This document shows positions 1 to 14,729 of a stretch of 14,729 nucleotides of DNA, piece after piece. The notes under the pieces are model-generated. The model was not told where the DNA came from, made no database searches, and worked only from the letters and a program-made list of their open reading frames with translations. The translations under genes were made by a program, and so were the position numbers. How positions within the stretch are numbered: position 1 is the stretch's first letter; each line of letters starts with the position of its first letter. The DNA comes from an uncultured Porphyromonas sp. (lineage in GTDB: Bacteria; Bacteroidota; Bacteroidia; Bacteroidales; Porphyromonadaceae). Where the stretch lies: positions 1 to 14,729 of the forward strand of contig CABQOJ010000010.1 in the NCBI GenBank assembly GCA_902465775.1. The letters run 5' to 3'.

Positions 1-2
1 TT

Positions 3-563
3 AAGTTCATTTCTTACGCTGTATGGTGGATCCGTCAGTCTATCCTGCAGGCACTCGCCGAGCAGTCACGCATCGTGCGTCTGCCACTCAACCAGGTGGG
101 ACTGCAGCAGAAGATGAATAAGGCGATTGTCAAGTTCGAGCAACTAAATGGTCGTCGTCCTAGCCCGCAGGAGATAGCTGACGAGCTAGAGCTCCCCGAG
201 GACAAGATTCGGGAGGCGCTCAAGGTGCAAGGTAAGCATCAGTCGCTTGATGCTCCATTTGTGGAGGGCGAGGACAATAACATGCTGGACGTCCTAGTCA
301 ATGAGGATACCCCCTCGACCGATAGCAGTCTGATCAACGAGTCTCTCTCTGCCGAGATAGATCGTATCTTGGATCAGCTGGGAGATCGTGAGGCGGAAGT
401 GCTACGCTGCTTCTTCGGTATCGGTTGTCCTGAGATGACCCTTGAGGAGATAGGTGAGCGCACCAAGCTCTCTCGTGAGCGTGTGCGTCAGATCAAGGAA
501 AAAGCGATCCGTCGTCTCAAGCAGTCTGATCGCTGCGAGTACCTAAAGGCCTATCTTGGATAG
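3..563 (+). CDS. rpoD: Primary sigma factor RpoD, C-terminal part (5' end outside window)
   Basis: This is the C-terminal 186 codons of the housekeeping sigma-70 factor, which directs RNA polymerase to promoters. The reading frame is already open at base 3. The visible protein begins inside region 2.3/2.4 (KFISYAVWWIRQSILQAL), continues through region 3 with an acidic stretch (EGEDNNMLDVL), and ends with region 4.2, the helix-turn-helix that reads the upstream promoter element (TLEEIGERTKLSRERVRQI, then KEKAIRRLK) and the family-typical end YLKAYLG. The lack of any long insert and the wording of regions 2.4 and 4.2 match Bacteroidota primary sigma factors, which recognise TTTG/TAnnTTTG promoters like those seen later in this window. 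A hairpin terminator follows 45 bases after the stop. Alternative sigma factors are unlikely because regions 2.4, 3 and 4 are all present and canonical. Confidence 0.95.
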   Translation, partial: KFISYAVWWIRQSILQALAEQSRIVRLPLNQVGLQQKMNKAIVKFEQLNGRRPSPQEIADELELPEDKIREALKVQGKHQSLDAPFVEGEDNNMLDVLVNEDTPSTDSSLINESLSAEIDRILDQLGDREAEVLRCFFGIGCPEMTLEEIGERTKLSRERVRQIKEKAIRRLKQSDRCEYLKAYLG

Positions 564-608
564 TCGCCTCGCTCGATAGCAGAGGCACATATCACGCTAT
601 CACATAAA

Positions 609-660
609 GAGCTTCATTGGTCTAGCGTACGATCGTCGCTAGAGCAATGAGGCTCCTTTC
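609..660 (+). terminator. Hairpin terminator after rpoD
   Basis: Bases 609-627 pair with 637-655 (19 positions, one G-T wobble and one G-G mismatch) around a 9-base loop, followed by the pyrimidine-rich CTTTCCTAT. The uridine tract is weak, but the stem is long and lies between rpoD and the permease gene, so it probably ends rpoD transcription. Confidence 0.7.
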
Positions 661-690
661 CTATAAGACCCAATAATCTGATTATACCAC

Positions 691-1611
691 ATGACTGACA
701 AGACAAGCTCCCCCGCAACTGACTGGCTGGGCTACTTGATGGGGCTCATCTCCTCCGCTACCTTTGGACTGATACCACTGCTGAGCATACCCGTGCTGAC
801 GCAGGGCGTGGCTGAGGGGACGGTGCTCATGTACCGCTTTCTCATCGCAGCGCTCATCGTTGGTAGCATTGTCGTGATACGTAGAGAGTCTCTGCGGGTA
901 TCGTTGCGGAGCTTCTTGATCCTGCTCGCCTTGTCGGTCTTGTACTTTTTTTCCTCCTTTCTGCTCATCGAGGGGTATCAGCACATGCCGTCGGGTGTCG
1001 CCACCGTGCTACACTTCAGCTATCCAACGTTTGTCGTGCTACTCATGTTTCTCGTCTTTCGTCAGCGGATCAACGTACTACAGGGGCTGGCCGTCCTCTT
1101 AGCTTTAAGTGGCGTGTCACTCATCTCAGGCTTCTTTGAGTCAGACGTGACCTCTATCCCGCTCAGGCCGTTGCTCACGGTGCTCTTCTCGGGCTTTTGC
1201 TACGCTACCTACATCGTCATCCTTAGGCACGCACGCCTAGAGCCGATGAGTAGCTTCAAGCTGACCACCTACGTGATGGGACTCTCTGCCATACTCTTTG
1301 CGCTCTTTTGCAAAGCCACAGGCGCCAGCCTCCTCTTGGACAATGAGACGCAATGGATCTACACCGCCCTGCTGGCACTCATCCCGACCGTCTGTGCTAA
1401 TATCACACTCGTCTGGGCAGTGAATCGAATAGGCTCCACGCCGACCGCCATCATGGGAGCACTGGAGCCACTTACCGCCGTAGTCGTGGGCGCCTTCGCT
1501 CTAGACGAGGAACTCTCTCTAGGTCAAGGGATCGGCATCGGCGTCGTCCTAATGGCCGTCCTGCTACTCGTCGTGTCGCCACTTCTGATGCGCCGACTCA
1601 AGCAAGTCTAG
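691..1611 (+). CDS. EamA/DMT-superfamily permease
   Basis: This is an integral inner-membrane protein of 306 residues, the usual length for drug/metabolite transporter (DMT) superfamily exporters. About ten hydrophobic segments are visible, arranged as two EamA repeats (roughly residues 12-147 and 158-298). The second repeat ends with the family-typical pattern: GALEP at 256-260, a glycine-containing helix, the acidic pair E273-E274, then LGQGIGIGVVLM. Charged loops such as RRES and RQR separate the helices. The substrate cannot be read from sequence; relatives export amino acids, metabolites or drugs. ATG at 691 is the first start in the frame, 31 bases after the rpoD terminator. No clear Bacteroidota promoter is visible ahead of it. 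Its TAG stop directly abuts the stop of the convergent phosphatase gene with no spacer. Confidence 0.88.
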   Translation: MTDKTSSPATDWLGYLMGLISSATFGLIPLLSIPVLTQGVAEGTVLMYRFLIAALIVGSIVVIRRESLRVSLRSFLILLALSVLYFFSSFLLIEGYQHMPSGVATVLHFSYPTFVVLLMFLVFRQRINVLQGLAVLLALSGVSLISGFFESDVTSIPLRPLLTVLFSGFCYATYIVILRHARLEPMSSFKLTTYVMGLSAILFALFCKATGASLLLDNETQWIYTALLALIPTVCANITLVWAVNRIGSTPTAIMGALEPLTAVVVGAFALDEELSLGQGIGIGVVLMAVLLLVVSPLLMRRLKQV

Positions 1612-3303
1612 CTAAAGTTGCTGCGCCAAGGCACGCGACAGATAGAACCTGTTCGTCTCCGAGACATAGACCACAGGCGTCGGGAGCTCTCGCTCCACCC
1701 CGTCAACCCAAGCTCTGCGCTGGTAGGCACGTAGCTCGATCTGGTGTCCCTGGTAGTGGATCGTGATCCGCTTCTCCTCGGGCTGGTCACCCGTCATCTC
1801 GTACTGACCTTGGGGAAAGAGCTCGTCGTGTGGCGCATAGTACTCCTCCGACAGCTCCAGCATCGTCTGACTTAGCCCAAGCTGCGTACGCATATAGTTG
1901 TGCAGATCAATGTTTGTCACACAACCTCTGATCGGCGTCAACCGTTGAGGCGTATAGCTAGCGAGAAAGACCTCTTCGCCCGTATGCCCATGCGTCGTAA
2001 AGCCAATGAGCAGGTGTCGCTTCATCCAGTCTACGAAGTACTCCTTCAGACGATACTTTTGGCTCCAGCCAAGCTCCTTATACTTAGCCTTGCGCTGCTC
2101 AGCCGATAGCGTCGAGCAGGCGTAGTCCTCCACCGCATTGATCTCTGCCAGCTCCTCCTCCGAGGGACGTATGCTGGTCCATAGGTAGAGACTGTCGGCT
2201 AGGTGTGAGAGCGCCGTCTGACTCGTCTTGCGACCCAGCTCCACCGAACTATAGCGAAAGCGTGTCAGTGGCATGATCAGTTCGTCTAGAGTCAGACGCG
2301 CATAGCCCTTGTCCACACGACCGATGCTCATACCACTATTGCCATGGTCAGCCGTCACGAGGACGATCGTATTCCCGTCTCGCTGCGCATAGTCCAGAGC
2401 TACGGCTACCGCCTTGTCAAAAGCTAGAAACTCCGTAGCCATCGCCACGGGGTCGTTGGCATGAGCCGCCCAGTCCACCTTGCTTCCTTCGACCATTAGG
2501 ACAAAGCCGTTAGCGTTCTCCAGATTACGTATTGCCGTCTCCGTCATCTCAGCCAGCGAAGGGTAGCGCAGCGTATCCCCGAGCGAGCGACGATCCATGT
2601 CGTACGGCATATCCATCTTGTCAAAGAGCGCCCACATACCACCCCCACGATGCGTCCGCATAGCTGCGAGATCATCGAGGTAGAGTGCTATACCCTGACG
2701 GTTCAGACGCTCCTTGAGTTCGCTCGTCATCAGCGAGGTACCACCGCCCAGTAGGATGTCTATTCCGTTGTCCACCATCTGCGGGACGATGCTCTTGTAG
2801 AGCTTGCGCGAAGGCGTGTGAGCAGTACAATCAGCTGGCGTAGCGTGGGGAAACTCGCACGTACAGACCAAACCGATACGCTTGCCCTGCGTCTGCTTGG
2901 CAGCCTCCATAAGGGTCACCACGGGACGGTAAGCCCACGAGGAGTCCAGCGGTACTAGGTCATTGTGCGGATCGCTGTACGGATAGGTCGCGATGAAGCC
3001 ATCGATCGAGGGCACGCCCGTCATGTAGCAAGAGGTCGTCGGTGCCGAGTCCCCGATAGGCGCATTGGAGCAGTAGGTGATGACGCTCCCCGAGAGATAA
3101 GGGTCGAGCGCTAGGTGCTGCGCCTGAGGATTGAGCGCCCTCTGATACCAGCGAGCCAGCGAAACCGTCGGTAGCGAGGTTCCGTCCGAGATGAGGAGGA
3201 TCACATTCTTGGCGGGGCGCTCGGGTAGTGGGTACTCCTTCTGCTGCGCCACCAGTGAGAGCGTGGGGAGGAGCAGCAGTAAGATACGCAAGATGCTTTT
3301 CAT
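1612..3303 (-). CDS. Secreted alkaline phosphatase (PhoA-type)
   Basis: This 563-residue protein is predicted to hydrolyse phosphate monoesters outside the cytoplasm. A signal peptide (K2 to about A19, ending LVAQQ) leads into the alkaline phosphatase fold. Metal and catalytic residues can be matched to E. coli PhoA by spacing: D40 in ISDGTS, the D85-S86-A87 motif with S86 as nucleophile, H153-A-T155, E272/D277/H281 in VEGSKVDWAAH, D319-H320 in VTADHG, and a histidine in THGHTGEE (H438 or H440). Residues about 510-563 form a short extra C-terminal segment ending YVSETNRFYLSRALAQQL, possibly a small substrate- or wall-binding fold (inference). It begins 11 bases after rsmA on the same strand, so the two are probably cotranscribed. 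No terminator follows, because the permease gene starts immediately at its stop codon. Confidence 0.93.
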   Translation of the reverse strand: MKSILRILLLLLPTLSLVAQQKEYPLPERPAKNVILLISDGTSLPTVSLARWYQRALNPQAQHLALDPYLSGSVITYCSNAPIGDSAPTTSCYMTGVPSIDGFIATYPYSDPHNDLVPLDSSWAYRPVVTLMEAAKQTQGKRIGLVCTCEFPHATPADCTAHTPSRKLYKSIVPQMVDNGIDILLGGGTSLMTSELKERLNRQGIALYLDDLAAMRTHRGGGMWALFDKMDMPYDMDRRSLGDTLRYPSLAEMTETAIRNLENANGFVLMVEGSKVDWAAHANDPVAMATEFLAFDKAVAVALDYAQRDGNTIVLVTADHGNSGMSIGRVDKGYARLTLDELIMPLTRFRYSSVELGRKTSQTALSHLADSLYLWTSIRPSEEELAEINAVEDYACSTLSAEQRKAKYKELGWSQKYRLKEYFVDWMKRHLLIGFTTHGHTGEEVFLASYTPQRLTPIRGCVTNIDLHNYMRTQLGLSQTMLELSEEYYAPHDELFPQGQYEMTGDQPEEKRITIHYQGHQIELRAYQRRAWVDGVERELPTPVVYVSETNRFYLSRALAQQL

Positions 3304-3314
3304 AAAGGTTGTAT

Positions 3315-4130
3315 TTAAGGTGTTGTTAGATTGTCTGTTGGTAATGCCTCGTACATCAAGGTGAGCCCGATGAAGTCCTCCACCGAGAGGCGCTCCGCAC
3401 GGAGCGTAAAGATGTCGTGGTCAGCATAGGGAAACTCTTTGCCAAAGAGCGATTGCAAAGCATTGCGCAGCATCTTCCGTCGCTGTCCGAAGGCGGTTTT
3501 GACCACCCGCTTGAAGTTGACCTCGTCGCAGGGTAGCGACGTACGCTCGTTGCGACGAGCGATCATCACGCCCCCGTCCACCTTGGGCGGTGGGTTGAAG
3601 TCCCGCTTTGACACCTTAAAGAGGTAGTCGCAGTCGTACCAGCACTGGAGCAAGACGCTCAGGATGCCGTAGTCACGACCGCCTGGCGTAGCACAGAGTC
3701 GCTGCGCCACCTCATGCTGTAGCATACCCGCCACCGCTGGGATGCGCTCGCGTAGCTCTAGGATACGGAAGAAGATCTGCGAAGAGATGTTGTACGGATA
3801 GTTGCCGATCACCACAAAAGACGTGTCCGCCCGTCCAGGGATCAGCTCCTCAGCGGGTAGCTTGAGGAAGTCTCCCTCGATGATCCGCCCCTCCTGGCTT
3901 AGCTGTGGAAAGTGCTGGTGCAGATACTCAATACTCTCATGATCTATGTCGATCACCTGCAGGTCGTGCCCCGCCTCTAGGAGAGGCTGCGTCAGGACGC
4001 CCATACCAGGCCCCACCTCTAGGATCGGCGTGCCGATGTAGTCCGCCACCGAGTCGGCAATGCGCTGCGCTGCACCGAGATCGGTGAGAAAGTGCTGCCC
4101 CAGATATTTCTTCGCTCGTACAGATTCCAT
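3315..4130 (-). CDS. rsmA: 16S rRNA (A1518/A1519) dimethyltransferase RsmA
   Basis: RsmA (KsgA) uses S-adenosylmethionine to dimethylate two adjacent adenines in the 3' hairpin of 16S rRNA late in small-subunit assembly. Visible motifs, numbered from the chosen start: RAKKYLGQHFL (5-15), SAM-binding EVGPGMGVLT (38-47), acidic D61 in VIDID, the catalytic signature GNYPYNIS (109-116; the usual form is N-L-P-Y), and FNPPPKV at 178-184. I chose ATG at 4130, giving 271 residues, because the family normally begins a few residues before KKxLGQHFL and a TACTTTTG promoter-like element lies only 24 bases upstream. An ATG at 4151 would add seven residues (MTTSERT) and cannot be excluded. The alkaline phosphatase gene follows after 11 bases. 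Confidence 0.95.
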   Translation of the reverse strand: MESVRAKKYLGQHFLTDLGAAQRIADSVADYIGTPILEVGPGMGVLTQPLLEAGHDLQVIDIDHESIEYLHQHFPQLSQEGRIIEGDFLKLPAEELIPGRADTSFVVIGNYPYNISSQIFFRILELRERIPAVAGMLQHEVAQRLCATPGGRDYGILSVLLQCWYDCDYLFKVSKRDFNPPPKVDGGVMIARRNERTSLPCDEVNFKRVVKTAFGQRRKMLRNALQSLFGKEFPYADHDIFTLRAERLSVEDFIGLTLMYEALPTDNLTTP

Positions 4131-4153
4131 AGTTCTTTCGCTCGTTGTCATGT

Positions 4154-4161
4154 CAAAAGTA
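4154..4161 (-). promoter_or_regulatory. rsmA: Possible -7 element for rsmA
   Basis: On the minus strand this reads TACTTTTG, matching the Bacteroidota -7 consensus TAnnTTTG. A start site a few bases downstream would fall at or inside the 4151 ATG, which favours translation from 4130. No convincing TTG lies at the usual 20-base spacing, so the call is weak. Confidence 0.35.
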
Positions 4162-4191
4162 CAACTTTTCCGTCAAGGGAGCGGGGAGACC

Positions 4192-4226
4192 TTAGAAATT
4201 AGAGGTTAGATGTTAGAGAGTAGAAG
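4192..4226. repeat. Heptad repeat TTAGANN, about five copies
   Basis: Consecutive 7-base units TTAGAAA, TTAGAGG, TTAGATG and TTAGAGA are followed by a degenerate GTAGAAG. They lie in the spacer between divergent rsmA and the GYF-2/CD225 gene. Function unknown. Confidence 0.6.
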
Positions 4227-4280
4227 GCAACACATCTTTCGAGCGTGCTATTGATATTCAACCTATAGCCCCCATCACTA

Positions 4281-4311
4281 TTGTATAAGTCCAAGTGATT
4301 ACATACCTTTG
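4281..4311 (+). promoter_or_regulatory. Bacteroidota-type promoter for the GYF-2/CD225 gene
   Basis: TTG at 4281-4283, a 20-base spacer, then TACCTTTG at 4304-4311. This fits the TTTG-N19-21-TAnnTTTG consensus read by the Bacteroidota primary sigma factor. Transcription would begin near 4318, leaving a leader of about 75 bases. It shares its design and neighbouring bases (ATTACATA before, GCGTA after) with the promoter at 5388-5418. Confidence 0.72.
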
Positions 4312-4393
4312 CGTATGAAGAATGTAGGTTGAGCCAGGGGGAGATTTTGCCTTCTGCTGAGATCAACGAACCATCTTAAATCAAAATAGAAGT

Positions 4394-4912
4394 ATGAAGC
4401 TGTACTACATCGTCCACAATGGACAAGAGCTAGGACCCTACACGCTTGAGGAGTTGTCCGCCCGAGGTATTACTCCTCAGACGATGATACGCGTCGATGG
4501 CATGAGCGATGCTTGTCCTGCTCAGACACTGGATGAGTTACGTCCCCTCTTTGGGTACCAAGCACCTGGCCCCAATCCCTACGCAGGAGCTCCAGCTTAT
4601 GGCGCTGGCGCCCCGATGGGTAGCTCTATGCAATCACAAAACCGCCCCAAGATGCCACCCGACAATCTGGTTTGGAGCGTTCTCTGCGTTCTTTTCTTCT
4701 TCCCGCTAGGGATCATACCGCTTATCTACTCGATACAAGTCTCCACACTCTATGATAGAGGAGACTATGAGGGCGCTGAGAGTGCAAGTCGCAAGTCGCT
4801 CCAGTGGGCTAAGGGACTGGCCATTGCAGCCGCCGTGTGCGTAGGCATTACCATAGCCATCTGCATTATCATAGCTGTTATAGCCGCATCAGCTGTCTCG
4901 GCCACTTTGTAG
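4394..4912 (+). CDS. GYF-2 domain plus CD225/dispanin-like membrane protein
   Basis: This is a 172-residue protein with three parts. Residues 1-53 look like a GYF-2 (DUF4339) domain: YYIVHNGQELGPYTLEEL, then a conserved G-M (36-37). The domain is thought to bind peptides or other proteins. Residues 54-88 are a linker rich in Pro, Gly, Ala and Tyr (PNPYAGAPAYGAGAP). Residues 89-170 match the CD225/dispanin pattern: a first hydrophobic segment (LVWSVLCVLFFFPLGIIPLI), the loop motif YDRGDYEGAESASRKS, and a second hydrophobic segment rich in Ala and Ile. The protein is probably anchored in the inner membrane with the GYF-2 domain in the cytoplasm (inference). Its role is unknown. It has its own promoter and terminator, so it is a single-gene unit. 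ATG at 4394 is the first start and has no clear Shine-Dalgarno sequence. Confidence 0.85.
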   Translation: MKLYYIVHNGQELGPYTLEELSARGITPQTMIRVDGMSDACPAQTLDELRPLFGYQAPGPNPYAGAPAYGAGAPMGSSMQSQNRPKMPPDNLVWSVLCVLFFFPLGIIPLIYSIQVSTLYDRGDYEGAESASRKSLQWAKGLAIAAAVCVGITIAICIIIAVIAASAVSATL

Positions 4913-4913
4913 A

Positions 4914-4978
4914 CTCTCCGACAGGAGAGCTTGAGACTAATAGCTAGTCGCTCAAAGCTGGTCGGCTTCAACTAGCTA
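4914..4978 (+). other. Two hairpins downstream of the GYF-2/CD225 gene
   Basis: CTCTCC at 4914-4919 pairs with GGAGAG at 4924-4929. TAGCTAGT at 4941-4948 pairs with ACTAGCTA at 4971-4978, enclosing AAGC/GCTT. Both lie directly 3' of the stop codon, before the stronger terminator at 4996, and may stabilise the 3' end of the transcript. Confidence 0.4.
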
Positions 4979-4995
4979 GTAAACTGCCTTTAGGT

Positions 4996-5038
4996 ATCCA
5001 CGTGAGAAATTGGATGTTTCTTACGTGGATAATTTTTG
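4996..5038 (+). terminator. Intrinsic terminator of the GYF-2/CD225 gene
   Basis: ATCCACGTGAGAAA at 4996-5009 pairs with TTTCTTACGTGGAT at 5017-5030 (14 positions, one wobble) around a 7-base loop, followed by AATTTTTG. It is homologous in stem and flanks to the terminator at 12827 after the second LRR gene. Confidence 0.85.
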
Positions 5039-5080
5039 TCGCTCAGTGGGGAACGGACAAATAGTTCGGACTTATGAGTG

Positions 5081-5143
5081 GGTTCTTCCGAAGTTTCATT
5101 TGGTTCTTCCGAAGTTTTATTTCGTTCTTCCGAAGTTTTATTT
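5081..5143. repeat. 21-bp tandem repeat, three copies
   Basis: Three units (5081-5101, 5102-5122, 5123-5143) share the core GTTCTTCCGAAGTTT and differ at only a few bases. The period is a multiple of three, so one frame reads as a repeated V-L-P-K-F-Y-F peptide, but that frame starts inside the terminator and is not a convincing gene. Each unit contains TTCTTCCGAAG, with short inner symmetry at TTCCGAA. Confidence 0.85.
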
Positions 5144-5175
5144 CGGCCCTTCGTGGGGGCTATTTGTTTTCCACC

Positions 5176-5425
5176 GAGCTATTGGCGATTTCCTCCGTGC
5201 TGGCCTTAGACCACCCGATCTAGAGCGTCGCTTCCCCAAGGAGTATTGCTAAGACGGCCAACAGACTATCGCGTGAACTTGCTCGCTATCAACTAAAAGT
5301 AGCGAAGAATCTTTCATCGTTTTCATGTTTGGCTGAGTTTCGTTTCCACTTTTGGCGAAAAGGTGGTGGAGTAGCATCTTTAGGGTATTGCATATGTCAA
5401 AATAATTACATATCTTTGCGTACGA
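5176..5425 (+). repeat. Copy A of a 250-bp upstream repeat (partner at 9472-9725)
   Basis: This stretch runs from GAGCTATTGG to just past the promoter and aligns with 9472-9725. The best-conserved core, 5202-5356 against 9498-9652, is the same length in both copies and about 80% identical counted by eye. The distance from the first GCT to the -7 element is 233 bases here and 235 in copy B. One frame is similar in both copies (LALDHP, SPRSIAK, LARYQLKVAK, LSSF, CLA, FRFH), but copy A has a TAG stop inside it. It may be a decayed small gene or a conserved regulatory or mobile fragment. Confidence 0.75.
5388..5418 (+). promoter_or_regulatory. Promoter of the zinc-ribbon/LRR unit
   Basis: TTG at 5388-5390, a 20-base spacer, then TATCTTTG at 5411-5418. 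It lies at the downstream end of repeat copy A. Transcription from about 5425 would give a leader of roughly 208 bases before the zinc-ribbon gene. The leader contains possible hairpins, including AATCGC at 5561-5566 pairing with GCGATT at 5574-5579. Confidence 0.75.
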
Positions 5426-5632
5426 AATTGGAGATACTTAAAGAGTGTTCCTTTTTTCTGCTAAAGCTAGGCCTGAGATGTCATGCGCACTGGTTGAGTA
5501 GCCGACTGCTCAGTTGCAGTCTTACATTGTCTAGATGATCTCTGGCTAGCTAATAGTTGTAATCGCTCTGATGGCGATTCAGGCAACTACAACAACGAGA
5601 TCTATTTCAAACAAACTTAAATAGGATAAGGT

Positions 5633-6358
5633 ATGGAAACTATCAAATGCGAAAAGTGTGGATGCGTCATGGCGATAGCATCCGAGGTCTGTCCCGAGTG
5701 CGGAGCATCGGTGAGTCAAGGTGAGCCTAAGGCGAAGCCTCAACAATCTGGAGCCCAAGTTCCTTTCAAGGGCTTGGAGGAGGAACTGAGAAACAATCTC
5801 GCTCTGCAAGAGAAGAACCCGTCACGAATGGTCACTACCTATATTGACCGCTTCATTAAAGACGAGGAGGGTAAGCAGCGTGATATACTATATGACTACA
5901 TTGAGATGGCAGCGGCAAATATAACCAACTGTGTCTTCAAGCATGAAGATGGTAGTGAGGTTTTTGCGGGAACGCTGAACGATGGCAAGAGGCACCTGAT
6001 GATGCAGTTCTATTTCTCTGACGAGGATGAGGACTACAAGAGATTTCAGGCGCTGGAGTGCGCTAAGCTCTTTACCATGGAGGAGTCTCCAGCTGGGATC
6101 TACTATTACTCTATAGACTGTGGCGAAGACGTTCACCTAGCAGCAGAGATCTTCACAAAGGTCGCTATAGACGTTTATGAGCTACCCACCACAGTTCCTG
6201 TTGATAAGTTCTTCTCGTCAACATACGACACCAAGAGAGCTGCGGTTAAAGAGGCCAAGAATAGCAGTGTCTTGCACTACAAACCGACTAGAGGAGGCTT
6301 CTTCAAAAACGTAGGACGTGCTCTCAAATTCGCATTCCCAGAGTTCCGAAAAAAATGA
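5633..6358 (+). CDS. Zinc-ribbon protein of unknown function
   Basis: This is a 241-residue protein with no signal peptide or membrane segment. The N-terminus is a short zinc ribbon: C6-x2-C9 and C20-x2-C23 (KCEKCG, then CPECG), of the kind often found at the start of Bacteroidota proteins of unknown function. A polar linker (residues 25-45) leads to a mixed alpha/beta region I do not recognise, with aromatic and acidic stretches (FYFSDEDEDYKRFQ). The C-terminus is basic and ends in FRKK. ATG at 5633 follows the purine-rich AGGATAAGG, a plausible ribosome-binding site. The LRR gene follows 40 bases after the stop with no terminator between, so the two are probably cotranscribed. A cytoplasmic adaptor role would fit, but nothing in the sequence proves it. 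Confidence 0.8.
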   Translation: METIKCEKCGCVMAIASEVCPECGASVSQGEPKAKPQQSGAQVPFKGLEEELRNNLALQEKNPSRMVTTYIDRFIKDEEGKQRDILYDYIEMAAANITNCVFKHEDGSEVFAGTLNDGKRHLMMQFYFSDEDEDYKRFQALECAKLFTMEESPAGIYYYSIDCGEDVHLAAEIFTKVAIDVYELPTTVPVDKFFSSTYDTKRAAVKEAKNSSVLHYKPTRGGFFKNVGRALKFAFPEFRKK

Positions 6359-6398
6359 GTGCTAATCAAATCATAACGAGTTGATAAAGGGCGCACTT

Positions 6399-6827
6399 AT
6401 GACAAAGAAGTCAGTTGTCTCAGGTGCGGAGTCACCCCGCTCATCTGCTGTGATCAGGATGACCACACAAAAGGTGGTCGATGAGCAGATCTCCTTACGA
6501 GTAGAGGCTAGTGGAGCTGTATCTATAGATGGTGTCCAGGAGCCCCTTCACACAGATGGTCTGTATCATAACTATACGCTCACTGCTCAGGAGGTAGTCA
6601 TCCGTGGCGAGGTTACACGCTTTGGCTGTCGTCAAGACTTTGAAGACGAAAAGGGTATAGCGACTTTAGAGTTTTCCCAGTGTGCTGCCTTAAGAGAGTT
6701 GGAGTGTAACTTTAATAAGCAACTAACGAGTCTGGATCTCTCTCAGTGTGTAGCCTTGACCACGCTAGACTGTAGCGATAATGATCGATTGACGAACTTA
6801 GATCTCTCTCTCAGTGTGTCGCCTTGA
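6399..6827 (+). CDS. Leucine-rich repeat protein, 5' portion before frameshift
   Basis: This is the first 142 codons of a large LRR gene, cut short by a 2-base shift at the (TC)5 run 6803-6812. I chose ATG at 6399 over TTG at 6381; AAAGGG lies about 10 bases upstream. The N-terminus (VISRMTT-like start, then a beta-rich region ending EVVIRGEVTRFGC) resembles the start of the second LRR protein in this window, but there is no signal peptide. The first LRR units follow (FSQCAALRELECN, TSLDLSQCVALTTLDCSDN). After DLS the frame runs into LSVSP and a TGA. Removing one TC would join it to the downstream frame and give one protein of about 956 residues. As written, the product would be a 142-residue fragment with barely three repeats. 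Confidence 0.8.
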   Translation: MTKKSVVSGAESPRSSAVIRMTTQKVVDEQISLRVEASGAVSIDGVQEPLHTDGLYHNYTLTAQEVVIRGEVTRFGCRQDFEDEKGIATLEFSQCAALRELECNFNKQLTSLDLSQCVALTTLDCSDNDRLTNLDLSLSVSP

Positions 6828-8710
6828 CCACGCTGAATTGTAGCGATAATGATCGATTGACGAACTTAGCTCTCTCTCAGTGTGTCGCCTTGACCACGCT
6901 GAATTGTAGCGATAATGATCGGTTGACGACTTTGGACGTGACGAAGAACGTTGCCTTAACAGAACTAGACTGTAGTGGCAACGGGCGGATGACACGCTTG
7001 GATCTATCGAAGAACGTAGCCTTGACTAAGCTGTCTTGCGATTTCTCTGAACTGGAGAGCTTGGATCTATCGAAAAACGTTGCTTTAATCGAGCTGAATT
7101 GTAGGGGCAACTGGCGGATGACGAGTTTGGATCTATCGAAGAATGTAGCCTTGACTGAACTCAACATCAGTGGCAACAAACGGATGACGAGCTTGGATCT
7201 ATCGAAAAACGTAGCTCTAACAAAGCTAAACTGCAACTGGAACGATCAATTGACGAACTTAGATCTCTCGAAGAACGTCGCCCTGACTGAGCTGGTTTGC
7301 GATTACACTGAACTGGAGAGCTTAGATCTCTCAAAGAACGTTGCCCTGACTACTTTGTCTTGCAAAGGCAATAAGCAACTGACGAGCTTAAATCTCTCAA
7401 AGAACATCGCTTTGACTACATTGTTTTGTAGAAACAATAAGAAGCTGACGAGCTTAGAACTCTCTAAGAACGTTGCCTTGGAAGAGCTAGATTGTATAGA
7501 CAATGACCAATTGACAAGCTTGGATCTGACGAAGAATGTCGCCTTGACCCAGCTTTCCTGTTTTTGGAGCAATCTGACAAGCTTGGATCTGACGAAGAAC
7601 GTCGCTTTGACTGAGCTAGATTGTAACTATAACGAGCAACTGAAGAACTTGGATCTGACGAAGAATGTCGCCTTGACTAAATTGGAGTGTAAAGACAACA
7701 TTCAACTGACAAGCTTGGATCTTTCGAAGAATGTTGCCTTGACCGAGTTAGATTGTAGTGGCAACGAACAACTGACGAGCTTAGATCTCTCTAAGAACGT
7801 TGCTCTGAGCGAGCTTAGCTGTACTGACAAGGAGCAAACGATCGAAGAGCTATCAAGTCTCCCCAACTTGAAGAAGCTTTCGTATCATACGAGTTCAGAC
7901 ACTTTAGATCTCTCCAAGCTTGTTCATTTGACTGAGCTGTCTTGTTGTGGCACCAAGCAGCTGACAAGCTTAGATCTCTCTAAGAACGTTGCCTTGACAA
8001 AACTAGATTGTAGCAATAACGAGCAGCTGACAAGCTTAGATCTCTCCAAGCTTGTTCATTTGACCGAGCTAGATTGTATAGACAATGACCAATTGACAAG
8101 CTTGGATCTGACGAAGAACGTCGCTTTGACTAAGCTAGATTGTAGCTATAACGAGCAGCTGACGAGCTTGAATCTATCGAAGAATGTTGCTTTGACTGAG
8201 CTAGATTGTAGCTATAACGAGCAACTGACGAGCTTGAATCTCTCGAAGAACGTCGCCTTGACCAAGCTGGAGTGCAAAGACAACAAGCAGCTGACGAGCT
8301 TAGATCTATCGAATAACGTTGCCTTGACCAAGCTAGACTGTAGAGACAACGAGCAGTTGACGAGCTTAAACCTCTCAGAGAGCGTTGCCTTGACTGAATT
8401 ACATTGTGGTGGTAACGAGCAACTGACGAGCTTAGATCTCTCTAAGAACGTTGCCTTGACTACATTGTCTTGTTACGACAACGAGCGTTTGAAGAGCTTA
8501 GTTCTTCCAAATAGCGCCACCTTGACTGAGCTACGTTGTAGTGGCAACAAGCAACTGGCGAGTCTGGATCTCTCTAAGAATCTCCTCCTGACTAGGTTAA
8601 ATTGTCGTGACAACGAGCAGCTGACGAGCTTAGATCTCTCTAAGAACGTTGCCTTAACTAATCTACGTTGTGAGAACAATAACTTAGAGCACTTGGATCT
8701 CTCTAAAAAT
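6661..8710 (+). repeat. 66-bp LRR-coding tandem repeat array, about 30 units
   Basis: Units of 66 bp (a few of 63) share strings such as GATCTCTCTAAGAACGTTGC and TTGACTGAGCTAGATTGTAG. Near identity at the DNA level, and blocks of several units repeated together (for example around 7490-7560 and 8068-8140), point to growth by unequal recombination or gene conversion. The minus-strand open frames here are shadows of the repeat. Confidence 0.9.
6803..6812 (+). repeat. (TC)5 dinucleotide run at the frameshift
   Basis: GA is followed by five TC units and then AG. The same position in the preceding LRR unit (6737-6744) carries four TC units, and the next unit has the in-frame 12-base form GCTCTCTCTCAG. 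The extra TC moves the frame by two bases and truncates the protein. Confidence 0.9.
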
Positions 8711-9271
8711 GTCGCCTTGACTGAGCTTAGCTGTACGGACAAGCAACAAACGAACCAAGAGCTACTGGACCTCACGAACTTAAGAGAGCTTACGTATCGT
8801 ACGACCTCGGACACCTTAGACCTATCTAAGGCTACTAATTTGACAAAGCTAGACTGTAGTGGTAGCGAGCTGTTGACTAGTCTGAAACTCCCAGAGGGGA
8901 CGTTGATGGAGTTGAACGTGACGGGGTGTAAATCATTGACGAGTTTGCACTGTCAGGACAATTCTCTAGAAGATCTGTTTTTCTCTGATTGTGAAGCCTT
9001 GGAGGAGGTTGACTTTAGCCAAAGCAGGCTAGTCTCTATCCAAATCGAAGGTTGTCCTAACTTGCGTACCATCCGTTGCTACGCTACGCTCCTCGAGGTG
9101 AATCTGCTGAAAGATCTAGCAAATGCGCTACCTGATCGAAGAGGGTTGCCTGCGGGAGAGCTGTATGCTTTTGCAGCCAATCAAGAGAAGCTGCTCTCTA
9201 TCCATCTGCCTGAGTTCTGTCAGAGCGTTGCTGATAAGAACTGGCACATAAATATCGTCGAACCGAAGTAG
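6824..9271 (+). CDS. Leucine-rich repeat protein, 3' portion after frameshift
   Basis: This is the rest of the LRR gene in the shifted frame, 815 codons from the TTG at 6824. That TTG is probably not a real start, because the frame is LRR sequence right back to the TC run. The body is about 30 LRR units, mostly 22 residues with consensus TSLDLSKNVALTELDCSGNE then QL; some units have 21. The conserved Cys in each unit resembles the cysteine ladder known from Listeria InlJ-type LRRs. Two irregular modules with CTDK and SDTLDLSK interrupt the array near 7810-7950 and 8722-8850. The C-terminus (NALPDRRGLPAGELYAF to DKNWHINIVEPK) resembles the caps of the second LRR protein. No type IX sorting domain or anchor is present, so the joined protein would probably stay in the cytoplasm. 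A terminator follows. Confidence 0.85.
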   Translation: MTTLNCSDNDRLTNLALSQCVALTTLNCSDNDRLTTLDVTKNVALTELDCSGNGRMTRLDLSKNVALTKLSCDFSELESLDLSKNVALIELNCRGNWRMTSLDLSKNVALTELNISGNKRMTSLDLSKNVALTKLNCNWNDQLTNLDLSKNVALTELVCDYTELESLDLSKNVALTTLSCKGNKQLTSLNLSKNIALTTLFCRNNKKLTSLELSKNVALEELDCIDNDQLTSLDLTKNVALTQLSCFWSNLTSLDLTKNVALTELDCNYNEQLKNLDLTKNVALTKLECKDNIQLTSLDLSKNVALTELDCSGNEQLTSLDLSKNVALSELSCTDKEQTIEELSSLPNLKKLSYHTSSDTLDLSKLVHLTELSCCGTKQLTSLDLSKNVALTKLDCSNNEQLTSLDLSKLVHLTELDCIDNDQLTSLDLTKNVALTKLDCSYNEQLTSLNLSKNVALTELDCSYNEQLTSLNLSKNVALTKLECKDNKQLTSLDLSNNVALTKLDCRDNEQLTSLNLSESVALTELHCGGNEQLTSLDLSKNVALTTLSCYDNERLKSLVLPNSATLTELRCSGNKQLASLDLSKNLLLTRLNCRDNEQLTSLDLSKNVALTNLRCENNNLEHLDLSKNVALTELSCTDKQQTNQELLDLTNLRELTYRTTSDTLDLSKATNLTKLDCSGSELLTSLKLPEGTLMELNVTGCKSLTSLHCQDNSLEDLFFSDCEALEEVDFSQSRLVSIQIEGCPNLRTIRCYATLLEVNLLKDLANALPDRRGLPAGELYAFAANQEKLLSIHLPEFCQSVADKNWHINIVEPK

Positions 9272-9378
9272 TAAGAATTACTTGACGCAATATCGCTGTC
9301 CAGTAAAAGTTTTTTGAGAGGAACGAAAGAAGGGCCGATTCGACAAGGAGAAAGTCCTTCGTATCAGTAAGTCTCTAG

Positions 9379-9420
9379 GGGGAGAGCACTATGTCAAGCT
9401 GTTTGACATTTGCTCTCCCC
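9379..9420 (+). terminator. Long hairpin after the first LRR gene
   Basis: GGGGAGAGCA at 9379-9388 pairs with TGCTCTCCCC at 9411-9420, and inside it ATGTCAA at 9391-9397 pairs with TTGACAT at 9403-9409 around a 5-base loop. The result is a 17-bp stem with one small internal bulge. It is followed by TGATTGTGATTTATT, which is only mildly T-rich. It lies 107 bases after the LRR stop codon. Confidence 0.75.
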
Positions 9421-9471
9421 TGATTGTGATTTATTGCTGTCCAGTCATCGGACGGCGATAATGTTCCACAG

Positions 9472-9725
9472 AAGCTATTGGGGATTCCCTTTATGTTGGC
9501 CTTAGACCATCCGCTCAGGAGCGTTATTTCCCCAAGGAGTATTGCTAAGGCGGTTAATAAGTATTCGCTACAACTCGCTCGTTACCAACTAAAAGTAGCA
9601 AAGATTCTTTCATCGTTTCCATGTTTGGCCGTATTCCGTTTCCACATTTGGCTGTATCGGGAACGGGAAGACACCTCTTAGGCTATTGCATACGTTGAGA
9701 CGATTGCATATCTTTGCCTATCAAG
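9472..9725 (+). repeat. Copy B of the 250-bp upstream repeat (partner at 5176-5425)
   Basis: This copy aligns with 5176-5425, with a core of about 80% identity at 9498-9652. It contains an uninterrupted 67-codon frame from 9478 to 9681 (ending FRFHIWLYREREDTS) where copy A has a stop. The start codon is TTG and no ribosome-binding site is evident, so I treat it as a repeat rather than a gene. Confidence 0.75.
9686..9716 (+). promoter_or_regulatory. Promoter of the secreted LRR gene
   Basis: TTG at 9686-9688, a 20-base spacer, then TATCTTTG at 9709-9716, with the same layout as the promoters at 4281 and 5388. It lies at the end of repeat copy B. The leader to the ATG at 9996 would be about 270 bases. 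Confidence 0.75.
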
Positions 9726-9792
9726 GAGCGAGTATTACTTCGCAAAAGTGAACCTTGCCCTAATCCTACGCTTGAGATGTCACTGTCAATAT

Positions 9793-9910
9793 AGACTGCT
9801 AAAAGCTCTCTACGAGGCAGGCGTCTCCCCTCTGTGGTAGCACGCTTGGCAGTCTCTGCCTAGATCAAGTCTTGGTAGACAGGTCTCGCTGAGCGTACTT
9901 GATCCTTTCT
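9793..9910 (+). promoter_or_regulatory. Structured 5' leader of the secreted LRR gene
   Basis: AGACTGC at 9793-9799 can pair with GCAGTCT at 9849-9855, and GATCAAGT at 9863-9870 with ACTTGATC at 9897-9904, which is followed by CTTTCTA. The second stem plus its pyrimidine tail could act as an attenuator. No known riboswitch family is recognised. Confidence 0.35.
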
Positions 9911-9995
9911 AACCGCATCAAGAGCTATGATAATTGGCTTACTATAGTTTATTGCATTTTAGACGAATCACAAAACACTAGACATAAAATTACTT

Positions 9996-12776
9996 ATGAA
10001 GAAACTGAACCACCTCTTTTGGACTCTTCTCTTAGCTCTCTCGGCACTGCCTCTTTGTGCTCAGACGAGCTCTGTGATCAAACTGAAAACTTCGCTGGAG
10101 CCAAACGGCGATAACACCATCTGCATCTGGTCTCAGACGACATCGGGACGTATCTGGGTCACGGGAGCCAAGCTCCTTGATGAAGAATACCTAGATGGAG
10201 AGCCAAACTACTACACTATCACATCTCAAGAGATTACCATCGAGGGTGACGTGACATATCTAAACGTGGATGACAACCATCTTACGAGTATTGACCTATC
10301 GGGGAATACTTATCTACGGAGTCTCTTCTGTGCCAACAATGAGTTGGAGCAGATCGACCTTACGAAGAGTGGCTACTTAGCCACCTTCGATGGTCATAAT
10401 AACCGATTTACATCGCTTGACTTCTCTGGAAATACGAAGATGCGCATTGTAAGTATTGATCGTAATCGCATCAGTGGCGAAGGTATGACCAAAACACTTG
10501 AGTCGCTCCATGATCAAAGTGCAGAAACAGGCGAAGTGAAGATCTGGGTGATTGACACGAAGGATGCAAACGAACAAAATGTTTGCACCAAAGAGCAGGT
10601 GGCTATTCTCAAGGGGAAGAACTTCCAAGTACTGGATTGGGCTGCAGGAGCTAATAATCGCAAAGGGATCCCTTACGAAGGCTCCGAAAGCTCCGAGAGC
10701 GTCCCCTCAATGACTCTCTCCTCTAATCGTACCTCAGGGTCTTGGATATTGGTCATAGATGCTGATAAGAAAGACCGTAGTGAAGTATGGTTGGATCTGA
10801 ATGGCAATGGAACTCGCGATGCTGGAGAGCAGCTAGCTGACCGTGATTTCGGACGTTTTGTTATTAAGCCTGTGGCAGCTAAGGATCTGACGATTTACGG
10901 CAAAGTTACGGTCTTAGAGTGCCAAGATAATGAGATTACCGACATTGACTTGTCTAAGAATCCATTTCTTAAAGGGTTGAATTGCGGTAAGAATAAACTC
11001 ACGGCTATAGACCTATCCTCCTGCAAAGCGCTAGAGAAACTTGAGATCTATCATATGGGACTAGCCTCTCTAGATGTCACTTCAAATAGCCACTTGCGGA
11101 TCTTAAAGTGCTATGGGAATAACTTAACCTCCCTAGATCTCTCAAAGTGTCCTGAACTTACGACTTTGGGTTGTGACGAAAATAAGCTTACCTCGCTAGT
11201 GCTTACTCAGCAAGCAAAGCTTTCGTCTCTTATGGCTCATACGAATCAATTGACGCAGATAGATCTAAGCGCATGCAAAGAGCTGAAAAACGTTACGCTG
11301 TATGAGAACAAACTGGAGACGATCACTCTTGCGAATCATCCTCTCCTAGAGGAGATGTATGTGTATGACAATAAGTTGCAGGCTATAGATCTCTCTGGTT
11401 GTCCTGCACTGATGTACTTGAGTATTGGGATGAATCAACTTCACTCTTTGGACATCTCACACTGCCCGCTCATCAAGGACATCTTTTGCCCCAGCAATCA
11501 ACTCAAGGATGACGCGGTGACCTCTCTAGTGGCTCAGCTACCAAATCGCGACAAGGAGGCTGAGGCTGGCAAGCTATACATCATAGATACAGACTGTAGT
11601 CCAGCAGACGGAAACTACTGCTCTAAAGAAAATGTGAAGAACGCACAGGCTAAGCACTGGCAGGTATATGACTTTCGCCAGGGGAAAAACGAGGGAGCCA
11701 ATCCTTATGAGGGTGCATTGGACAAGGATATATACACTACAGATCAGCCGAAAGCTATACTGACCTCTCAAGAGCCTACGGGAAAATGGACCCTTCGTCT
11801 AGATGCCTCTCAAAATGTCAGAGATAAAGCTTGGATAGACAGAAATAACGATGGTGTATATCAGCAAGGAGAGGAGATCAAAGATTGGGATCGTGAGTTT
11901 ACACTACCACGCACTACGACCGAGCTTACGATATATGGCAATATGGAGAAGCTCTACTGTATGTCCAACGATCTTACAAAGATAGATTGCTCTCAGCTGC
12001 CTAAACTGGCCCGGCTATCTTGTCGAGATAATCTCTTGCAGGAGTTAGACGTGAGTCACAACAAGCAACTCTTAGAGCTCTTTTGCTATGGGAATAAACT
12101 CACCACACTAGATGTCTCCCAGAATAAAGATCTAATTCGTTTGGACTGTGAGAAGAACCAAATCACAGCCCTCAATTTCAATGCTAATGACAAGCTAGAA
12201 GAGCTTTATTGTCACCACAATCAGTTGACTACCTTGGATCTCTCTAAGAACAGTCTCCTCGGGCGAGTCAACTGCGCTTACAACAACCTCACCTCGCTGA
12301 GCCTGCCAGAGCATAATCAGCTCCGCATAGTTAACTGTCACAATAATAAGTTATCCCAAGAGGAGACAAAGGTGGTGGCAACCGCCTTGTGTGATCGATC
12401 TGATCTACAGGAGCAGGGTATCATCGTAGCTGTGAATACGGTTGATGAGAGTGAGCAAAATGTCTGGACCGTAGAGACCGTATCTCTTGTCTCTGGTAAA
12501 AACTGGCTAGTCTATGATTGGAAAAACGGAGAGAACAAGGGAAGGAACCCTTATCTTGGTGAACCAAATCATATATCACAGATTACACCTGTTAGACATC
12601 AGATTAAGGTTGAGGGAACGACCGTTTGGGTAGAAAAGGAGAACCAGGACATCGTTCGTCTCTATTCCGTTTCGGGCGCACTGATCCTTGAAACTAAAGA
12701 GGATCACATCACCCTTCCTTATGAAGGCACGTTCTTGCTTTCTATAGAGGATGCATGTTATGTCATAACGATCTAG
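9996..12776 (+). CDS. Secreted InlJ-like LRR protein, probable type IX secretion cargo
   Basis: This 926-residue protein starts with a signal peptide (MKKLNHLFWTLLLALSALPL, cleavage probably after A22). It then has three modules, each a beta-rich opening region, an LRR block with the pattern L-x-x-I/L-D-L-S-x-N/C-x-x-L and frequent Cys, and a closing cap. The caps read IWVIDTKDANEQNV to FQVLDW (183-215), LYIIDTDCSPADGN to WQVYDF (527-560) and VAVNTVDESEQNV to WLVYDW (811-842). Modules two and three open with Asp/Asn/Gly loops (DLNGNGTRDAGE at 267-278; DRNNDGVYQQGEE at 615-627) that resemble EF-hand-like calcium loops. The last 65 residues (VRLYSVSGALIL, then GTFLLSIEDACYVITI) fit the type IX C-terminal sorting domain. 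Its overall plan resembles the P. gingivalis internalin-family protein InlJ. It is probably surface-attached or released, with a role in adhesion or biofilm (inference from relatives). Confidence 0.85.
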   Translation: MKKLNHLFWTLLLALSALPLCAQTSSVIKLKTSLEPNGDNTICIWSQTTSGRIWVTGAKLLDEEYLDGEPNYYTITSQEITIEGDVTYLNVDDNHLTSIDLSGNTYLRSLFCANNELEQIDLTKSGYLATFDGHNNRFTSLDFSGNTKMRIVSIDRNRISGEGMTKTLESLHDQSAETGEVKIWVIDTKDANEQNVCTKEQVAILKGKNFQVLDWAAGANNRKGIPYEGSESSESVPSMTLSSNRTSGSWILVIDADKKDRSEVWLDLNGNGTRDAGEQLADRDFGRFVIKPVAAKDLTIYGKVTVLECQDNEITDIDLSKNPFLKGLNCGKNKLTAIDLSSCKALEKLEIYHMGLASLDVTSNSHLRILKCYGNNLTSLDLSKCPELTTLGCDENKLTSLVLTQQAKLSSLMAHTNQLTQIDLSACKELKNVTLYENKLETITLANHPLLEEMYVYDNKLQAIDLSGCPALMYLSIGMNQLHSLDISHCPLIKDIFCPSNQLKDDAVTSLVAQLPNRDKEAEAGKLYIIDTDCSPADGNYCSKENVKNAQAKHWQVYDFRQGKNEGANPYEGALDKDIYTTDQPKAILTSQEPTGKWTLRLDASQNVRDKAWIDRNNDGVYQQGEEIKDWDREFTLPRTTTELTIYGNMEKLYCMSNDLTKIDCSQLPKLARLSCRDNLLQELDVSHNKQLLELFCYGNKLTTLDVSQNKDLIRLDCEKNQITALNFNANDKLEELYCHHNQLTTLDLSKNSLLGRVNCAYNNLTSLSLPEHNQLRIVNCHNNKLSQEETKVVATALCDRSDLQEQGIIVAVNTVDESEQNVWTVETVSLVSGKNWLVYDWKNGENKGRNPYLGEPNHISQITPVRHQIKVEGTTVWVEKENQDIVRLYSVSGALILETKEDHITLPYEGTFLLSIEDACYVITI

Positions 12777-12826
12777 AGTTCGCGAACTTTATAGGTGTCT
12801 TCTTGACCAAGTAGCCAACACTTGAG

Positions 12827-12869
12827 ATATCCACGGGAGAAGTTGACTTCACCCGTGGATATTTTGTTT
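12827..12869 (+). terminator. Intrinsic terminator of the secreted LRR gene
   Basis: ATATCCACGGG at 12827-12837 pairs with CCCGTGGATAT at 12852-12862, and GAAG with CTTC inside around a TTGA loop, followed by TTTGTTTG. Sequence and flanks are clearly related to the terminator at 4996. A 12-base palindrome, AGTTCGCGAACT, sits right after the stop codon at 12777-12788. Confidence 0.85.
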
Positions 12870-13088
12870 GCGAATCCTTAGTCGATGGACATGCAAAGGT
12901 AATATAGATGACAATTGAGGCTGCACCCAAGTGTTCTCAAGATTCGTCTATAACCTAGACACGGCTCAACAGTCTCCAAAGATGAGCTATACAACAACCC
13001 CTCCAAATCTTTAGGACACAAAGTTCATAACCCATCCCTTACAGTTCGCGAATAGGAAGCATCACACGAATCAGCCCGTGAAGGTGAG
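12870..13088. other. Intergenic spacer between convergent genes, no gene seen
   Basis: The two flanking genes converge here. I see no coding frame, RNA gene or clear terminator for the kinase gene. GTTCGCGAA recurs at about 13047-13055, echoing the palindrome at 12777. Confidence 0.5.
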
Positions 13089-14258
13089 TTAGGGGAGCGA
13101 CTGCAGGGGAAGGGCGATACGGAAGGTGGTGCCGACTTGTAGCTCGGAGCGCTTGACGTAGATGCGCCCGCGGAAGTAGTGACGTATGATGCGACGTGCG
13201 AGCGATAAGCCGAGCCCCCAGCCACGCTCCTTGGTGGTGAAGCCTGGTTTGAAGATCATCCGCTGCGTGGCGCGTGTCATACCACGGCCCGTGTCGGTGA
13301 TCTCGAGGTAGGCGTTCTTGCCGTGAGCCTCCGTGGTGATGGTGATCGTGCCCTTGCCGTCCATGGCGTCGACACCGTTCTTGACGATATTCTCCACGAC
13401 CCAGCTCATGAGGTCGGGCGTGATGAGACAGTAGAGCTCCTCAGCTGCTGGCTCGAAGACGATCTCTACCTGTCTGGAGATGCGTCGCGAGAGGTATTGC
13501 ACAGAGGTGGCGACCAGTCCGTTGAGCTCTATGGGCGAGAGCTCGGGTAGGCTGCCGACCTTTTGGAAGCGGTGGGCGATCAGCTCGAGGCGATTGACAT
13601 CTTGGCCCATGCTCTCAATGATTTCGGGAGGTAGGTCGTAGCTCTTGAGCAGTTCGGTCCACGCCATGAGCGAAGAGATAGGCGTGCCGAGCTGGTGGGC
13701 GGTCTCCTTGCTGAGCCCGACCCATATGCGGTCTTGCTCCCAGTGCAGTAGGCTGCGAATGGTGAGGACGAGGATGATGATGTAGAGGATGAAGATGCCC
13801 GTCTGCAGATAGGGAAAACGTAGCAACCGCCTTAGGTTACTGCTGTCGCTGTAGTAAAGGTATTGGCGCCCAGCGGTGCCTAGGTCTATCTCAATGGGTG
13901 CATAGCCAGAGCGAAAAGCCGTGAGTCGCCTCGCCAGATAGGTCGAGTCACGAGCGACCGCCACGGAGTCAATGTTTTTGTATCCCAAGATATTCCCGAG
14001 GCTGTCTGTGAGGATGAGCGGTATGGTCGTGTTTGACTCTAGGATTTGGAGAGCTAAGGCATTGAGCTGCTCGTCGCTTTGGCTGGCTATGCACTCGGTC
14101 GCCTCCGCCCAGGTCTGCATCTTGAGCCGCTCCTCGTCGGCCATGCGTCTCACGAGTGGCTCCGAGAGAACGAGCGGTAGGAGTGCCACGACGAGCGCCA
14201 GCACGACAAGTATTATATTGGTAGGCAGGGTGCCGAGTAATCTCCTAGAAGATGACAT
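13089..14258 (-). CDS. Membrane sensor histidine kinase
   Basis: This is a 389-residue two-component sensor that would autophosphorylate on histidine and pass the phosphate to a response regulator not present in the window. A transmembrane helix at about 13-33 and another at about 153-169 frame an extracytoplasmic region of roughly 120 residues with no domain I recognise. The kinase core follows: H-box ETAHQLGTP with H188 as phospho-acceptor, N-box VVENIVKNGVDAMD (N290, N294), G1 box DTGRGM (322-327), F-box region FKPGFTTKERG, and G2 box GWGLGLSLA (346-354). The end GTTFRIALPL is typical. It is divergent from the TetR-family gene, and its stop faces the LRR gene. The ligand is unknown. Confidence 0.92.
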   Translation of the reverse strand: MSSSRRLLGTLPTNIILVVLALVVALLPLVLSEPLVRRMADEERLKMQTWAEATECIASQSDEQLNALALQILESNTTIPLILTDSLGNILGYKNIDSVAVARDSTYLARRLTAFRSGYAPIEIDLGTAGRQYLYYSDSSNLRRLLRFPYLQTGIFILYIIILVLTIRSLLHWEQDRIWVGLSKETAHQLGTPISSLMAWTELLKSYDLPPEIIESMGQDVNRLELIAHRFQKVGSLPELSPIELNGLVATSVQYLSRRISRQVEIVFEPAAEELYCLITPDLMSWVVENIVKNGVDAMDGKGTITITTEAHGKNAYLEITDTGRGMTRATQRMIFKPGFTTKERGWGLGLSLARRIIRHYFRGRIYVKRSELQVGTTFRIALPLQSLP

Positions 14259-14310
14259 GTGGGTGAGAATTAGAGTGGCGTGCGCTTGACCCCAAAGGGC
14301 ACTTTCGGCG

Positions 14311-14326
14311 CAAAGCTGTATCTTTG
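14311..14326 (+). promoter_or_regulatory. Possible -7 element for the TetR-family gene
   Basis: TATCTTTG at 14319-14326 matches TAnnTTTG, 40 bases before the ATG. No TTG lies at the normal 20-base distance. Together with the bases just before it, it forms the short inverted repeat CAAAG-N6-CTTTG, which might be an operator in the divergent control region. Confidence 0.45.
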
Positions 14327-14365
14327 TAACGGTTATCTCACGCTTTTATTATCGTCCACACACTT

Positions 14366-14729
14366 ATGACCTCTACACAACACACGCGCCAGCGCATCGT
14401 CCAAATGGCCCACACGCTCTTTGTGCAGCAAGGAGTTGAGGAGACGACCATGGTCGCTATTGCTGAGGCTGTGGGGTGCAGTCGGCGCACGGTCTACACC
14501 TATTATAAGGACAAGCAGGCGCTACTCATGGCGGTTATAGAGCGGGAGATCAGTCTGATGAGTCAGTCGCTGAGCGAAGTGCTGGCTCGTCCTGCCGATG
14601 CGATTACTAAGCTGATGGTGTTGCTGGACAATCATCTGCAGCTGATCCAAAAGACGGTGCAGAGACAAGGCGAACACAATGCGAGCTTCTTTAGCGACAC
14701 TTTCAACATCGAGCGCCTTCGCCTCAAGT
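14366..14729 (+). CDS. TetR-family transcriptional regulator, N-terminal part (3' end outside window)
   Basis: The frame from ATG at 14366 is open to the last base, giving 121 codons of a protein whose C-terminus lies outside the window. The first 55 residues form a TetR DNA-binding domain: RQRIVQMAHTLFVQQGVEET (helix 1 and turn), then TMVAIAEAVGCSRRTVYTYY with KDKQALL, the classical helix-turn-helix and following helix. The remaining residues (about 56-121) are helical and begin the ligand-binding half, which varies and gives no hint of the ligand. TetR proteins usually repress a nearby transporter or enzyme gene. Here the divergent neighbour is a histidine kinase gene, and the true target may lie downstream. 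Confidence 0.93.
   Translation, partial: MTSTQHTRQRIVQMAHTLFVQQGVEETTMVAIAEAVGCSRRTVYTYYKDKQALLMAVIEREISLMSQSLSEVLARPADAITKLMVLLDNHLQLIQKTVQRQGEHNASFFSDTFNIERLRLK

Follow-up and report, generated by a model that had tools for sequence, protein, structure and literature searches.

We were interested in whether a short dinucleotide run acts as an on/off switch for an LRR gene of an uncultured Porphyromonas species. An earlier note on this DNA had claimed that the gene is split by a shift of two bases, coinciding with one extra TC in a run of five TC units, and had proposed a possible phase-variation switch. The gene lies in a window of 14,729 bases (the whole stretch of DNA that was analyzed), in which an rRNA dimethylase, an alkaline phosphatase, a histidine kinase, and other genes flank a lower-GC stretch with two LRR genes. 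The genes, repeat units, and TC runs given below with window coordinates are on the plus strand.

The split gene and its repeat units

The gene is open in two overlapping frames. ORF A (6399..6827) starts at ATG 6399, encodes the N-terminal domain and the first LRR units in 142 aa, and ends at the stop TGA 6825–6827; an alternative start at TTG 6381 gives a 148-aa frame, which scores 27.5 bits against Pfam LRR_4 (cut-off 27). ORF B (6785..9271), a frame of 828 codons with its stop at 9269–9271, carries the remainder of the LRR array and scores 159 bits against the same cut-off of 27, so that both ORFs lie above the threshold for an LRR_4/BspA-type protein. The earliest start-like codon of ORF B, TTG 6824 (giving 815 aa), overlaps the stop of ORF A in a TTGA (6824..6827). 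The two frames, together with a 68-bp unit among 66-bp units, bear out the two-base shift, and the figure of about 956 codons in all after the loss of one TC is arithmetically correct.

The frame change is located at the (TC)5 run (6803..6812) of the 68-bp unit U2 (6771..6838). As had been described, the preceding unit (6705..6770) carries a (TC)4 run at 6737..6744, and the following sister unit U3 (6839..6904) keeps the in-frame length; both are 66 bp long, and U3 also has a (TC)4 run (6871..6878). With its two extra bases set aside, U2 matches U3 at 66 of 66 positions, so the difference between the copies postdates a very recent duplication; the identity continues 17 bases rightwards. The extra bases are TC when U2 is aligned to its left neighbor and AT when it is compared with U3, where they stand just before a CT run of equal length. 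Because the result depends on which neighboring unit serves as the reference, "one extra TC" is one of two possible descriptions, and slippage at the TC run is the likely reading, not the only one.

The other description would have an AT inserted without slippage, perhaps as a by-product of unit duplication, in a way that mimics TC expansion. It takes one change after the duplication, compared with two (a TC gain in U2 and an A-to-C change in U3) for the alternative. Counted from the canonical unit, however, both histories total two changes. AT is not a repeat unit at this place, a TC slip is mechanistically easier, and GATCTC, which occurs in many other units, is kept by U2 and missing from U3. 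We consider an AT insertion quite improbable.

From 6785 to its stop, the ORF B frame contains no internal stop and no second frameshift and does not qualify as a decayed pseudogene; the neutral expectation is one stop per ∼0.9% substitution and three per ∼2.7%. The undecayed frame fits the young age of the U2/U3 difference, and the further decay downstream that the earlier note had named as an argument against a switch is not seen.

A hydrophobicity scan, which is not a signal-peptide predictor, found no hydrophobic, signal-peptide-like stretch at the N-terminus of ORF A, and visual inspection of 6301–6482 in three frames showed no hydrophobic N-terminus either. Secreted LRR proteins of congeners share the repeat type and the N-terminal domain with the split gene (ORF A and its best-scoring listed match show 50% identity across residues 21–134), but their N-terminus is hydrophobic (MSKQLRIWLFVLLG and the like). 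Several of them, though not all, end in a C-terminal tail that we take to be T9SS-like. Such a tail, seen in many congener relatives and missing from several others, is absent from the C-terminus of ORF B, as judged by comparison and not by a domain model. The split gene was found to have neither the signal peptide nor the C-terminal sorting domain of a secreted T9SS LRR surface protein. With no hydrophobic N-terminus, its predicted product is not an obvious surface protein.

We grouped LRR units into 37 clusters, 3 in the window and 34 in congeners, using the window and 27 of 32 loci (L171–L197) chosen for LRR or synteny matches; clusters with fewer than four units were dropped. Only the first cluster of the window is in two frames, and none of the 34 congener clusters is split, in a count that a frame change between clusters would escape.

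Relatives of ORF A and the variable locus

A search with the ORF A protein covered proteins of 81–259 aa, a size range that biases it toward early truncation, and gave three matches: P0139, P0140, and one distant protein. P0139 is an exact match found on three contigs, so the truncated state is not a one-off, although these contigs may share one sample. P0140, with two member sequences on four contigs, is 122 aa long and aligns with 78% of the 148-aa query at 86% identity. It ends LTSLDLSLSVLP (LDLSLSVLP) at a place where the window has LTSLDLSQCVAL, and the ORF A of the window ends LTNLDLSLSVSP (LDLSLSVSP), one unit after the end of P0140. Since the LSVxP tail is what the unit's Gln-Cys-Val-Ala codons spell in a shifted frame, P0140 is very probably broken likewise, judging from the protein, at the TC run that precedes the one in U2 and corresponds to (TC)4 at 6737..6744. 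The tail is thus a hint that breaks at TC runs recur. Since the break in the window goes together with a very recent duplication, it is simpler to assume a separate event in P0140 than one old break moved by unit shuffling. The apparent repetition of such a break one unit earlier also speaks against the AT insertion.

The same relatives bear on whether the split is genuine. Near-identical repeats of 66 and 68 bp are hard to assemble, but the exact ORF A protein on three contigs (with the proviso about their sample), the like tail in P0140, and the single open frame of the neighboring 926-aa LRR gene all argue for a real break, and two-base errors at a five-unit run are unusual. An error of sequencing or assembly in the repeat array is exceedingly improbable.

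The similar ORF A lengths (122 aa in P0140 and 142 aa in the window), the TTGA overlap, and the intact ORF B could suggest a split gene that is maintained, both halves being made and ORF B being translated via re-initiation at TTGA or by ribosomes slipping on CTC codons. We find this very doubtful: The TTGA arises from the unit's GCC-TTG-ACC codons with no need for selection, and the unit that is broken is not the same in the window as in P0140. Programmed −1 ribosomal frameshifting was rejected, as no canonical X_XXY_YYZ heptamer is present in the ORF A frame at 6690–6827 and folding downstream of the break is ordinary (z of −1.2 against mononucleotide shuffles).

ORF A has matches in six of six genomes, and P0140 as the query has matches in 21 of 38 family genomes; the best-scoring among the matches listed are 50% and 46% identical, respectively, and are therefore paralogues. 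Among the matches listed for ORF A, higher identities are confined to pieces some 50 residues long, and no relative of ORF A was found in viral_contigs. Among 120 listed of 7288 proteins matching ORF B, the best E-value belongs to a match of 45% identity over 86% of the query, and the highest identity is 54%, over parts. No ON allele is among these 120. As the ORF B of the window itself is missing from them, this search is no evidence that close alleles are absent. We found no report of SSR switching of Porphyromonas LRR genes in the literature, judged by titles and the beginnings of abstracts.

The surroundings of the gene differ between genomes. Of 26 genomes in the genus of P. endodontalis, 24 have a match to the dimethylase protein, with 95%–97% identity in G006, G023, G025, G026, and G027, which identifies the host as a Porphyromonas. 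Window positions 1–5356 and 13,090–14,729 match stretches ∼20 bases apart in G006, and positions 1–5037 and 13,083–14,729 match stretches ∼0.9 kb apart in G027. With the flanks nearly adjacent, the block that holds the 241-aa gene described below and both LRR genes is, by these matches, missing from the corresponding site in the two genomes; the two flanks sit on separate contigs in G025 and G026. The variable block extends over approximately 5357–13,089 of the window, between ksgA and the histidine kinase. Near its left edge lies an interspersed repeat with 21-bp units (5082–5199), an exact 14-mer of which has 17, 30, 49, 140, and 124 copies in G006, G023, G025, G026, and G027 and none in G008 (reversed control: none in the five, one in G008). 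Megablast of window 5001–9400 against a plasmid collection gave no match.

The second LRR gene of the block (9996..12776; 926 aa) is intact and has a hydrophobic, signal-peptide-like N-terminus. Upstream of the split gene is a gene of 241 aa (5633..6358) with two CxxC pairs near its N-terminus, which is zinc-ribbon-like by eye and had no match in a Pfam scan. As only 40 bases separate its end at 6358 from ATG 6399, it is possibly in one transcription unit with ORF A. A protein search found 18 relatives of the 241-aa protein, one group 81%–95% identical and another about 40%–48%; every one comes from the lgn or ena entries, two are in ncbi as well, and none carries a name. Pattern scans of genome_contigs and viral_contigs gave no relative. 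The 241-aa protein had no match in the 26 genus genomes and P0130, a 45% relative, had none in the 38 family genomes, in searches with no known positive whose empty results are uninformative.

Short and long dinucleotide runs in the clade

We then asked how unusual the run is. One (TC)5 was observed in the window against 0.24 expected, and at least one occurred in 41 of 200 dinucleotide shuffles; a single such run is within chance. Scanning five congeners with the dinucleotide pattern TCTCTCTCTC gave 45 separate runs by a hand count of rows (the reversed pattern is the same dinucleotide and carries no information as a control). Four of these are long, and the other 41, which are every run of 5–6 units in the lists of the five genomes, are mostly in coding-sized frames: 33 lie within open frames of at least 200 codons and eight in shorter frames. 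Certain short runs seem to be shared by two species, as in L220/L230, whose frame lengths and positions are equal (unaligned). Given their location in open frames and the apparent recurrence of some across species, runs of five units seem for the most part to be stable in this clade.

The long tracts are (GA)23 in G006 (L166:8533–8578), ∼520 bases upstream of a DUF3575 gene; (AG)21 in G023 (L167:467–508), ∼240 bases upstream of a DUF3575 gene; (AG)20 in G023 (L168:1674–1713), close to the 3′ end of an ORF of the EcoRI-type adenine methylase family; and an intergenic (TC)10 in G025. The gene following DUF3575 scores 30 bits for DUF3868 in G006 (cut-off 27) and 21.5 bits, below the cut-off, in G023. 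In size and placement, the first three tracts are candidates of the kind expected of contingency loci: (GA)23 and (AG)21 for promoter-type phase variation, and the ORF with (AG)20 for a phase-variable methylase. They have the dinucleotide class and the clade in common with the run in the LRR gene, but differ in having 20–23 units and in lying where contingency loci typically do.

A true phase-variation (contingency) switch at the LRR gene would have the TC runs at the start of the array change their length frequently and so toggle the protein. Part of this proposal stands. The break is at a TC run, placed such that a length change would alter the reading frame; the downstream frame is undecayed; the diverged P0140 appears, by its protein tail, to be broken in a neighboring unit; and the clade holds tracts long enough for such switching. 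However, five units are under the hypermutable range of at least eight units. Two Neisseria screens give a cut-off of eight units for dinucleotide tracts (PMC5953494, PMC7371114), although a table note in the former gives six units instead. The run is also far shorter than the 20–23 units of the clade's own long tracts. The 33 of 41 short runs in open frames, the lack of any split among the 34 congener clusters, and a product with no hydrophobic N-terminus also count against a switch, and no ON allele or mixed length was seen, with the same proviso about the ORF B matches listed. We regard it as unlikely.

A known system offers a comparison. The oipA gene of Helicobacter pylori is described as phase-variable through CT repeats in its signal-peptide region, repeat variation is compiled over 536 sequences, and CT count is a poor ON/OFF marker (PMC10564699). 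The likeness is a CT/TC dinucleotide run in coding sequence where a change in length throws translation out of frame and cuts the protein short. On the other hand, the product of oipA is an outer-membrane protein, whereas one length, of five units, is known here and the product has no signal peptide.

Origin and meaning of the frameshift

The break resembles a commonplace mutation of the slip type more than a switch built for turning a gene on and off. Our preferred reading, to which we assign a probability of roughly 55%, is that a variable LRR gene lacking a signal peptide has recently undergone a slip-type frameshift, which possibly recurs; the earlier note had itself allowed that five units are short and that a simple mutation is possible. 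The gene would be specific to its lineage, and it sits in a variable stretch of the Porphyromonas genome. One of its 66-bp LRR units would have been freshly duplicated, and a two-base length change at the short TC run of that unit would have caused the recent break. The run would owe its existence to the repeat's own Leu-Ser-Gln codons (LDLSQC motif), which spell TC repeats, and for the same reason the array start carries three runs of 4–5 units, each of which would be weakly slip-prone. The change would have arisen by slippage and could recur. In the present state, ORF A alone would be made, and the locus would have no dedicated high-rate switch.

A counterpoint to the slip reading is that two diverged copies have like tails, which could be the mark of a switch, or of a split, that is maintained. 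We also considered that the LRR repeat itself may be a distributed low-rate switch, in which a slip in the TC run of any early unit would turn the protein off, the stop/TTG overlap in GCC-TTG-ACC would leave some synthesis of ORF B, and duplication or loss of units would shift the switch point from unit to unit, which is what the differing break positions in the window and P0140 suggest. We judge this to be decidedly improbable.

With a slip-type mutation as the preferred reading, the locus is a caution against taking a repeat gene that is frameshifted at a short dinucleotide run for a switch on that ground alone, and the far longer tracts in the same clade are better switch candidates. If the recurrence suggested by P0140 holds, repeat-coding arrays would provide variable LRR genes with a built-in, slow on/off option that requires no dedicated long tracts.
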